Assembly (NCBI GenBank): GCA_017305715.1
Contig: JAFKKG010000014.1
Coordinates: forward strand, 1 to 64,000
DNA: 64,000 bases
Reading direction: 5' to 3'
From: Hyphomicrobiales bacterium
GTDB taxonomy: Bacteria; Pseudomonadota; Alphaproteobacteria; Rhizobiales; Xanthobacteraceae
Positions 22,218 to 26,376 of this stretch are shown piece by piece; within the stretch, counting starts at the first letter, position 1, and every line of letters begins with the position of its first letter. Below the pieces are notes generated by a model. The model saw nothing but the letters and a program-made list of their open reading frames with translations. It had not been told where the DNA came from and made no database searches. The translations under genes were made by a program, and so were the position numbers.

Positions 22218-22233
22218 TGTTTCACGTGAAACG
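22218..22233. other. parS site 3
   Basis: The palindrome GTTTCACGTGAAAC preceded by T, in the mnmE-mnmG intergenic region. Confidence 0.87.
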
Positions 22234-22275: not shown

Positions 22276-22316
22276 CGTTAGCCATGAAATGAATCAAGAA
22301 TTAAGCTATATAAATA

Positions 22317-23636
22317 TTACTTTCCTACACAGAATTCCCGGAAAATGACATCGAGAATATCCTCGACATCGACGCGCCCCAACAACCGTCCCAGGGAATT
22401 CGCAGCAAGACGAAGCTCCTCCGCAGCGAGCTCCTCGCCCGCTCCGACGACATTCATGCTGCGATGCAACGAAGCTACGGTCTGTTGCAGCAATTGGCGC
22501 TGCCGGGTCCGGCTGATCAAGCCGCCCTCACCGGCGCCAAAGTAATCGTGGGCGAACGCCACCAGAGCCGAGATCAGCTCCGGCAACCCGTCCCCGCTCC
22601 TGGCAGAAATCGCAAAACGACCAGCCTCGGCCATCGGCCGATAGGACTCCAGATCGATCTTGTTGCGAATCCCCCAGACCGGCGCGGTGCCGTCGTGATG
22701 AACTTCCTCGTTCGCGCCGTCGGCGAGCCACAGCACCAGATCCGCTTCCGCCGCACGGGCGCGGGCACGACGTACACCCTCCTGCTCGACCGGATCATCG
22801 GTCTCGCGAATGCCGGCGGTGTCGATGACCGTGACCGGATAACCGTCGAGGTCGAGTTGCACCTCGATGACGTCGCGCGTGGTGCCGGCGTGCGGCGATA
22901 CGATCGCGACCTCGCGCCGCGCCAGTTGGTTCATCAGCGTCGACTTGCCGACATTCGGCGGGCCTGTGATCGCCACCACGAGCCCGTCGCGCAGGCGTTC
23001 ACTTTGGCCCTGTGCCGCAAGGACTTCTTCAATCTCCGTCAAGAGCGCTTTGATCTTCGCCAGCGCCGGCGCGATCAATTCAGCGGGCACATCGCCCTCA
23101 TCGGAAAAATCGATACCGGCCTCGATCAGCGCGGAGGCCTCGATGATTCGCGCGCGCCAGTCGCGCGCTTTGTCGCCAAGCAGGCCCTTCAGCTGCCGAA
23201 GCGCCTGGCGGCGTTGCCGGTCGGTGTCGGCGTGAATGAGGTCGTCGAGGCCTTCGGCTTCGGTCAGATCGAGCTTGCCATTCTCGAACGCACGCCGGGT
23301 GAATTCGCCGGGCTCGGCGGCCCGCATATTTTCCATCGCCGCCAGCGTCGTGAAAACCGCGGCCAACACCGCCCGTCCACCATGGACGTGGAATTCGGCG
23401 ACGTCCTCGCCGGTGGCGCTGGCCGGACCTGGAAACCAGAGCACGACCGCATCGTCCAATGGCTGACCCTCGGCATCCCGCAGCAGCATCCGGGTGGCCG
23501 CCCGCGCCGGCGGGATCCTGCCGCCCAGCGCCGTCAGCGCCGGACTGGCTCCCGGTCCCGACACCCGCACGACGGCGATTGCGCTTGGCGCGCGGCCCGA
23601 CGACAGCGCAAAAATTGTCTGATCCCGCGGATGCAT
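22317..23636 (-). CDS. mnmE: tRNA uridine-5-carboxymethylaminomethyl modification GTPase MnmE
   Basis: A 439-residue protein with an N-terminal THF-binding domain (QTIFALSSG...), a helical middle and an inserted Ras-like G domain: P-loop [16 protein letters not shown] switch, [10 protein letters not shown] and NKID. It ends with the catalytic-cysteine motif CVGK. With MnmG it modifies wobble U34 of tRNAs reading NNA/NNG codons. It is the first gene of the leftward mnmE-mnmG-rsmG-parA-parB group. Confidence 0.96.
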
Positions 23637-23908
23637 CGCCTATTTGTGCAGGCGGGCCCGGAAAGGCAACGCCATTTGAATTCGAAAGGTCTGGGCGGGG
23701 AAATGGGGAGAATGCACCTCCCGCGCCCCGTTTGCTGCAATATTGGTGCAGCAATTATGCTGCAACAGCCGGTCAAATTCTCGCCTGCAGGGTTTCTGGG
23801 CACTAAAATTATAGTAATATCAAATAATTACGCTAATTATCTTGCTCCAGCACCCATCTGACCATGCTGCACCTTTGCTGCAGCAATTGCTGCAACATGC
23901 GGGCAATG
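23637..23908. other. Gene-free region with an iteron-like TTGCTGCAA array around an AT-rich core
   Basis: At least six copies of (T/A)TGCTGCA(A/C) in both orientations lie at 23732-23740, 23746-23754 (reverse), 23757-23765, 23864-23872, 23875-23886 (fused palindrome, two overlapping copies) and 23887-23895. They form two clusters on either side of an AT-rich core at about 23798-23850. No reading frame is credible. The arrangement resembles a multi-site operator or initiator-binding region. It lies between mnmE and the rho terminator; its function is unknown. Confidence 0.7.
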
Positions 23909-23940
23909 AAAAGGCGCCCCGCTTGCACGAGGCGCCCTTT
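23909..23940 (-). terminator. Rho-independent terminator of the rho gene
   Basis: On the minus strand a hairpin with GGCGCC arms extended by three pairs (one wobble) and a 6-nt loop TGCAAG is followed by TTTT. It starts about 20 bp after the rho stop codon. Having an intrinsic terminator after rho is consistent with a Rho-independent end for its own transcript. Confidence 0.8.
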
Positions 23941-23961
23941 CCCAGAACCCGGCCTGACGGA

Positions 23962-25227
23962 TCAGGTGTTCATGGAATCGAAGAATTCCGAGTTGTTCTT
24001 GGTGTTGCGGAGCTTGTCGAGCAGGAAGTCGATCGCATCCATGGTGCCCATCGGATTGAGGATCCGGCGCAGCACGTACATTTTCTTGAGCAGCTGCGGA
24101 TCGGTGATGAGCTCCTCTTTCCGGGTGCCGGAGCGGGAGATGTCGATCGCCGGGAAGGTCCGCTTGTCCGAGACTTTGCGGTCCAGGATCAGTTCGGAGT
24201 TACCGGTGCCCTTGAATTCTTCGAAGATCACTTCGTCCATTCGGCTTCCGGTATCGACCAGCGCGGTCGCGATGATGGTGAGCGAGCCGCCCTCCTCGAT
24301 GTTACGCGCGGCGCCGAAGAATCGCTTCGGGCGCTGCAACGCATTGGCGTCGACACCGCCCGTCAGCACCTTGCCGGATGACGGCACCACCGTGTTGTAC
24401 GCGCGGCCGAGGCGGGTGATCGAATCGAGCAGGATCACCACGTCGCGGCCGTGTTCGACCAGGCGCTTCGCTTTCTCGATCACCATCTCGGCGACCTGGA
24501 CGTGACGCACCGCCGGTTCGTCGAAGGTCGACGAGACGACCTCGCCTTTCACCGAACGCTGCATGTCCGTGACTTCTTCCGGACGTTCGTCGATCAGCAG
24601 CACGATCAGGTAGCATTCCGGATGATTGGCGGTGATGGAGTGCGCGATGTTCTGCATCAGCACCGTTTTACCGGTGCGCGGCGGCGCCACGATCAGCGCG
24701 CGCTGGCCTTTGCCGATCGGAGCGACGATGTCGATAACCCTTGCAGAAAGGTCTTTTCGCGTCGGATCCTCCAGTTCGAGGCGGAAGCGCTGGTCCGGAA
24801 ACAGCGGCGTCAGATTGTCGAAATTGACCTTGTGCTTTGACTTCTCGGGATCCTCGAAGTTGAGCGTATTGACCTTCAGAAGAGCGAAATAGCGTTCGCC
24901 CTCTTTCGGGCTGCGGATATGGCCTTCGATGGTATCGCCGGTGCGAAGACCGAAGCGGCGGATCTGAGAGGGCGAGACGTAGATATCGTCCGGGCCGGGC
25001 AGGTAATTGGCATCCGGCGAGCGCAAGAAGCCGAAACCGTCGGAGAGAACCTCGACGACGCCTTCACCGATAATGTCGGTTTCCTGAATCGCGAGCTGTT
25101 TGAGGATGGCGAACATCAGCTCCTGCTTGCGCATGGTGCTGGCATTTTCGACCCCATTCTCTTCCGCGAACGAGACGAGTTCGGCCGGTGTCTTGGCTTT
25201 GAGGTCTTGGAGTTTCATTTCCCGCAT
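23962..25227 (-). CDS. rho: Transcription termination factor Rho
   Basis: A 421-residue hexameric RNA helicase. The N-terminal Rho_N helix bundle begins [15 protein letters not shown]. The cold-shock-like RNA-binding domain has [23 protein letters not shown] (partly), and the ATPase has Walker A APPRTGKT and Walker [16 protein letters not shown]. The start at 25227 (MREMKLQDL) fits the family length; the frame runs upstream without support. A 255-bp leader separates it from hemJ. Confidence 0.97.
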
Positions 25228-25929: not shown

Positions 25930-26376
25930 CGCGCTTCGCCTTGCTCACCGCTGGAACGTTCCGGCCATCTCGCTCGTTGCGAGAAAAGCCCTGCCAGCGT
26001 GGGAGCGAGACATATCCTCAATGCACCGCTTCTCTAACTAATATTTATAGAATCTTAGGTTTGAGTCTAAGTAGCGGTGATTTGGACTCACAACAAACCG
26101 TCCCGCAGTTCTCCCGGCTTGTTCACATCCATCCCCGATCTTGCCGGGCTGTTGGAGCGTTCGAATAACGGCCCATGCATCAAATGCTTGCGCAAGTTTG
26201 CGTTCAGCTTATGCAGAGACAAGTCCACATATTCTCACTATCCTTCCGAGCAGCACGTTGACTTATCCTTTTGGGAGCCCTGTGAAGAAACAACCGGGTT
26301 ATCCCTGACAGGCTGCCCGGGGGCCAAATCTCTGGGCTAAGGTCCACAAGGATTCACAGGATACACAGGGGTATTG
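25930..26376. other. Putative chromosomal origin of replication (oriC)
   Basis: A 447-bp gene-free, relatively AT-rich region between divergent hemJ and ppsR. It holds four GANTC (CcrM) sites: GAATC 26050, GAGTC 26063, GACTC 26085 and GATTC 26351, three within 40 bp. DnaA-box-like 9-mers with two mismatches to TTATCCACA are TTGTTCACA (26119) and TGTGAAGAA (26281, reverse); weaker TCCACA/TTCACA words cluster at 26223-26367. A 12/13 match to the E. coli IHF consensus is at 26178-26190. Position, divergent flanking genes and nearby parS sites support the call, but no perfect DnaA box is present. Confidence 0.6.

Follow-up and report, generated by a model that had tools for sequence, protein, structure and literature searches.

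A two-cluster repeat array around a likely IHF site in the mnmE-rho gap

Repeat units and neighbouring features of the gap

The window, by which we mean the whole 64-kb stretch of DNA analysed, contains a 325-bp gap between mnmE and rho in which seven TGCWGCA units lie in both orientations and in two clusters separated by 100 bp (Table 1). Within the right cluster, positions 23879-23894 form the perfect palindrome TGCAGCAATTGCTGCA. The original prediction of repeats in both orientations, two clusters and a partial palindrome was thus confirmed, and its end coordinate of 23895 agrees with the sequence. Against these seven units, dinucleotide shuffling of the gap, repeated 10,000 times, gave 0 to 4 TGCWGCA, and the next-densest 325-bp stretch of the window has two. 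The signal of the array is its clustering and spacing, the frequency of the lone 9-mer being unremarkable: TTGCTGCAA with at most one mismatch had 20 matches in the window vs. 13.0 in shuffles, and this number was reached by 6 of 100 shuffles. The earlier label "iteron" is inapt, since the units face both ways and neither an initiator gene nor a DnaA box adjoins them; the neighbours are rho and mnmE. DnaA boxes were also rejected as the array units themselves (none within one mismatch in the gap).

Table 1 Positions of genes and sequence features at and near the mnmE-rho gap of the window
Feature	Position	Strand	Description
parS	20023, 20236, 22219, 22261		Perfect copies of GTTTCACGTGAAAC, around mnmG and rsmG
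mnmE	22317..23636	-	tRNA modification GTPase, from translation; matches in 41/41 family genomes
Promoter-like pair	23641..23669	-	TTGCCT (23664-23669), 17 bp, CAAATA (23641-23646); 4 bp before the mnmE start codon
Left cluster	23733..23764	.	TGCTGCA (23733), TGCAGCA (23747), TGCTGCA (23758); start distances 14 and 11 bp
AT-rich core between clusters	23793..23852	.	30% GC
IHF-consensus site	23818..23830	+	TATCAAATAATTA, exact match to WATCAANNNNTTR; 53 bp from left, 34 bp from right cluster
Rival promoter-like site	23836..23864	-	TGGTCA-17-GATAAT inside the array; consensus scan, 1 found vs. 0.3 in shuffles
Right cluster	23865..23894	.	TGCTGCA (23865), TGCTGCA (23876), overlapping TGCAGCA (23879), TGCTGCA (23888)
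GC-rich inverted repeat with short T run	23908..23941	-	Likely intrinsic rho terminator; bounds the array
rho	23962..25227	-	From translation; matches in 41/41 family genomes; ends upstream of the array

Counted from the start codon of mnmE, the array extends from 96 to 259 bp upstream, and mnmG, rsmG, parA, and parB follow downstream of mnmE on the same strand (we name the neighbouring genes from their translations and the families that these resemble). No regulator gene was recognised adjoining the array. A TTGC(C/G)-type hexamer and (C/G)AAATA at a distance of exactly 17 bp occurred in 41 of 50 gaps of the genus, and we infer that this conserved pair is the promoter of a probably leaderless mnmE mRNA, although CAAATA is poor as a -10 element. 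Sites of the type TGGTCA-17-GATAAT were found in 11 of the 50 gaps at differing positions, and for this reason the conserved pair is preferred as the promoter. On the other side of the array, the terminator scan did not call the inverted repeat at 23908-23941. An Rfam match to BjrC68 on this side (17.2 bits vs. a cut-off of 39) was set aside as one of five sub-threshold matches at chance level. The proposal that the array is an operator of rho is unlikely, given that it lies downstream of rho and of the likely terminator.

Conservation and geometry in the genus

The genus search covered 60 genomes including the window's own, of which 58 were matched (all except G033 and G035); mnmE-rho gaps were read in 50 of these, and eight were omitted. 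After the gap ends had been trimmed by 55 and 70 bases for the unit-enrichment counts, TGCNGCA was found in 124 copies and in 48 of the 50 gaps, compared with a shuffle mean of 7.75; shuffle comparisons across gaps, here and below, overstate independence because the genomes are related. Spacers of 2 or 5 bases between TGC and GCA were depleted instead (1 each vs. 9.0 and 9.4 expected in the 50 gaps). Units per gap ranged from 0 to 8, with no TGCNGCA in gaps L035 and L038 and a single copy in several others. The conservation check proposed with the original prediction thus gave a positive answer across relatives: the array recurs and its spacing is kept, but the number of units varies.

The closest gap sampled, L017, allows a base-by-base comparison with the window. 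The repeat-unit bases were identical at 43 of 45 positions, the IHF core at 9 of 9 and the IHF spacer at 3 of 4, compared with 79 of 161 of the remaining inner bases; at the ends of the gap, 37 of 50 bases on the mnmE side and 49 of 60 on the rho side were identical. The right cluster is preserved in L017. A scan for triple-unit patterns returned at least 120 stretches in genome contigs and 14 in viral contigs, and 33 of the 40 triple-unit matches listed overlap an open frame. The match with the most units (six) among the 134 examined came from Bradyrhizobium sp. AUGA SZCCT0158, and this match and one from a Bradyrhizobium MAG (L327) are themselves mnmE-rho gaps. The Rho of strain AUGA SZCCT0158 is identical to that of the window, and its MnmE has 90% identity over 105 residues; on this basis we assign the window to Bradyrhizobium. 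We consider it close to certain that the array has a conserved function at the DNA level.

Distances between unit starts, counted in the 48 gaps of at least 240 bp, peak at 3 bp (30 pairs), 11 bp (39 pairs), and 14 bp (31 pairs), with a smaller group at 22-24 bp. With a looser unit definition, the 14-bp distance had 36 pairs, 33 of them convergent (T-centred, then A-centred); pairs at 11 bp mix direct and divergent orientations. Of 140 TGCTGCA units, 127 follow an A or a T, whereas the next base on the other side varies, which makes WTGCTGC(A) an asymmetric half-site. Such half-sites are arranged with helical spacing to the left and right of the IHF-consensus site.

The AT-rich core between the clusters likely holds a DNA-bending IHF site, judging from its match to what we take to be the IHF consensus, WATCAANNNNTTR. 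The best match per gap was exact in 14 of 50 gaps vs. 0.7 in shuffles (maximum 4; 200 shuffles), and a match with at most one mismatch was present anywhere in 41 of 50 vs. 10.3 (maximum 17; 200 shuffles). Within the AT-richest 60-mers the consensus, again with at most one mismatch, was found in 37 of 48 gaps, compared with 7.8 on shuffling of the 60-mer (maximum 15; 300 shuffles). Across the same 48 gaps of at least 240 bp, the IHF site lies 52-57 bp from the left cluster in 24, the remaining half having other distances or no unit, and 34-36 bp from the right cluster in 27, with another distance or none in 21. These shuffles and distances are the actual test, since column conservation is biased by the choice of sites according to their consensus match. 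Both IHF alpha and IHF beta are encoded in the window's genome, with scores above the NCBIfam cut-offs. Just to the right of the IHF-like site, GTTAACC was observed in nine gaps (L018-L021, L024, L025, L029, L032, and L039) and was absent from the other 41.

Distribution in the genome and in other genera

Paired units elsewhere in the genome were near background, unlike what is expected of the operators of a regulon. TGCNGCA-N3-9-TGCNGCA had 28 matches in the window's genome vs. 20 for the reversed control, and four of the 28 are in the array. Over 25 genomes, TGCTGCA-N5-8-TGCAGCA had 38 matches vs. 33 in the control; 11 of the 38 lie in the mnmE-rho gap, which leaves 27 outside it, still compared with 33. 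On these motif counts the array is one locus and not a regulon, and such near-background pairs would be unusual for a transcription factor. The single palindrome behaved differently, as at most three mismatches gave 165 genome sites vs. 66 for the reversed control. The five other palindromes with one mismatch are all in open frames of at least 100 codons and have one or two TGCNGCA within 150 bp; we take these five to be probable coding look-alikes.

For the other genera, loci were drawn from mnmE and from rho in 30 of the 41 family genomes each and from mnmE in 30 of the 61 order genomes, and 58 loci, minus about five, were surveyed. In G075 both clusters are present, and between them lies a site that matches the IHF consensus exactly, here on the other strand. 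G083 has units together with PhaR-like boxes beside mnmE although rho is ~1 kb distant, and no IHF match (two mismatches at best). A further genus is represented by G064, with two units 11 bp apart. No array was visible beside rho or mnmE in the remaining loci of other genera, including those with an intervening gene. In several loci of sister genera (among L118-L136) a divergent gene that resembles YyaL/DUF255 by eye lies beside mnmE, at the place of the array.

Candidate functions of the array

The most economical reading is that the array belongs to the control region of mnmE. With moderate confidence, we consider it to be an upstream regulatory region of mnmE that is bent by IHF and that may also serve mnmG-rsmG-parA-parB. 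In such a region, a sequence-specific protein would bind the WTGCTGC(A) half-sites cooperatively and IHF would bend the AT-rich core between the clusters, so that the folded complex would raise or lower transcription of mnmE and perhaps also act on the co-directional mnmG, rsmG, parA, and parB. Control of mnmE had been named as an alternative in the original prediction, and it fits better than the origin or segregation role preferred there, considering the conserved promoter-like pair and that the units stay beside mnmE in G083. It is slightly weakened by the rival promoter-like site and by the look-alike palindromes. In architecture, the array can be compared with the GalR-HU repressosome of the E. 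coli gal operon, where operator clusters are roughly 110-130 bp apart and a DNA-bending protein acts between them. The array likewise has two clusters with a bending-type site between, but each cluster contains several half-sites, the bending site is of the IHF type, and the conserved promoter-like pair lies beyond the loop. A control element of such strong conservation, present at one locus close to the origin region and the par genes, would be of interest in a genus that is important in soil and as a symbiont: its binding factor perhaps has this one array as its target, and the regular geometry makes it easily testable. Our search of the open-licence literature found no description of the motif or of the gap.

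In an unlikely alternative, the TGC-rich array would be bound by PhaR (AniA), a regulator that responds to PHB, and mnmE would in this way be tied to carbon storage. PhaR sites are given as TGCRNYGCASMA for B. diazoefficiens (PMC6201568) and as forming the palindrome YGCRNYGCR for S. meliloti (PMC12542648), and bound S. meliloti sites such as AGATGCTGCACTGCAGCATTA hold the same half-sites as the array (PMC12542648). The likeness to the PhaR boxes of Bradyrhizobium and S. meliloti described in PMC6201568, PMC10888616, and PMC12542648 thus lies in the TGC/GCA half-sites. To score the gaps, we built a 21-bp matrix on 25 sites of S. meliloti, chosen from efficient- or weak-binding promoters in Table 3 of PMC12542648 (with one of the four exoH sites). 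Half of the gaps (25 of 50) scored higher than the 99th percentile of 1,000 shuffles, and most of these high scores fall at either of two positions close to mnmE. TGCRNYGCA was likewise enriched (33 vs. 3.65 expected, in 31 of 50 gaps). The phaR gene is present in 59 of 60 genomes, and in the one genome that has none (G041) the gap contains TGCNGCA once; yet G006, G050, and G051 have phaR and TGCNGCA none or once.

The gap of the window itself contrasts with this pattern, as it holds zero TGC-RNY-GCA and its best matrix score is 1.1, compared with a shuffle median of 4.5. Phasin loci served as a control: matrix hits above 12 were found in 26 of 30 (some overlapping, and the window genome's included), but only 8 TGCNGCA occur in the 6,063 bases around the 43 hits. 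PhaR as the sole explanation was rejected on these two grounds. PhaR-type boxes are found in the same gap of about half of the relatives and not in that of the window, whose units differ in being TGC-N1-GCA with 11/14-bp spacing and are sparse around the PhaR boxes of phasin loci. With regard to the published work, the word "mnmE" does not occur in the main texts of PMC6201568, PMC10888616, and PMC12542648, nor "trmE" in two of these, and the main text of PMC6201568 also contains neither "thdF" nor "tRNA modification". Taken by sequence likeness, PhaR may act at the mnmE-rho gap in many relatives and would not explain the array of the window. If the PhaR reading were true, carbon storage would be linked to tRNA modification or chromosome segregation. 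The best matrix match of the window is at 22454-22474 (score 16.1, TCATGCTGCGATGCAACGAAG), inside the 3' part of mnmE and close to a TTGCAGCAATTG; this match is possibly a chance occurrence in coding sequence.

A role in replication or segregation, which the original prediction preferred, is possible; its specific form, an origin-proximal nucleoprotein site with the layout of E. coli datA or plasmid P1 parS, is in our view distinctly unlikely. At both of these sites, short protein boxes flank an IHF site in noncoding DNA, and the array resembles them in having short boxes around an IHF-type site, also in noncoding DNA. The units of the window differ from those of datA in not being DnaA boxes, and presumably they are not P1 ParB boxes either. 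IHF has a described role at datA (PMC13036160). The two-armed architecture and the location of the array are consistent with such a site, as is the result that no second array was found in the window's genome. It lies upstream of parAB, ~1.5 kb from parS (as predicted, with perfect copies at 22219 and 22261) and ~2.0 kb from the start of the hemJ-ppsR gap, judged from gene order to be the counterpart of the putative oriC placed between bll0636 and blr0637 in USDA110 (PMC3927601). In this gap (25930-26373) no DnaA box was found when one mismatch to TTATCCACA was allowed, and the GC skew minimum near 33.4 kb is a broad trough that does not place the origin precisely.

Evidence against an origin-type site comes from the units and from their distribution. 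They are neither DnaA boxes nor parS, given that no match to GTTTCACGTGAAAC with up to two mismatches lies in the array and that the only ones in the window are the four copies of Table 1. The array is lost in L035 and L038, reduced in other congeners, and unseen beside rho or mnmE in most of the other genera surveyed, with the whole arrangement in one of them (G075) and parts in two. The units of G083, furthermore, accompany mnmE and not rho. The segregation role thus received no support from the survey.

It is very improbable that the array acts at the RNA level as a hairpin element or that it was left behind by a mobile element with terminal inverted repeats. The arms 23732-23753 and 23865-23886 are 82% complementary, and folding z-scores of the minus-strand RNA were -2.58 for the left and -2.07 for the right cluster (-0.95 and -0.69 on the plus strand). 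If the rival promoter-like site were used, the left cluster would sit in the mnmE leader, but a promoter at 23641-23669 puts the array outside it. The inner flank seen most often in the 14-bp pairs, A with C (19 of 36), is moreover a non-pairing combination, and no Rfam family reached its gathering score in the searched sequence. A mobile remnant is disfavoured because the geometry is common to many species, and TTGCTGCA-N0-30-TGCAGCAA occurs once in the genome.

Beyond an IHF-bent control region of mnmE, we can envisage a broader scheme that we consider quite unlikely. Here, a novel DNA-binding protein of Bradyrhizobium with essentially one array per genome as its target would fold the origin-proximal gap around IHF; the origin region and parAB would thereby be expressed or positioned according to the state of the cell, with PhaR boxes providing a tie to carbon storage in some species. 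For B. diazoefficiens, parA is reported to change in expression under at least one condition (PMC9505014), which speaks neither for nor against control from the mnmE-rho gap. Next to the parS pair at 22219/22261 lies the 60-mer with the highest AT content in the window (22277-22336).
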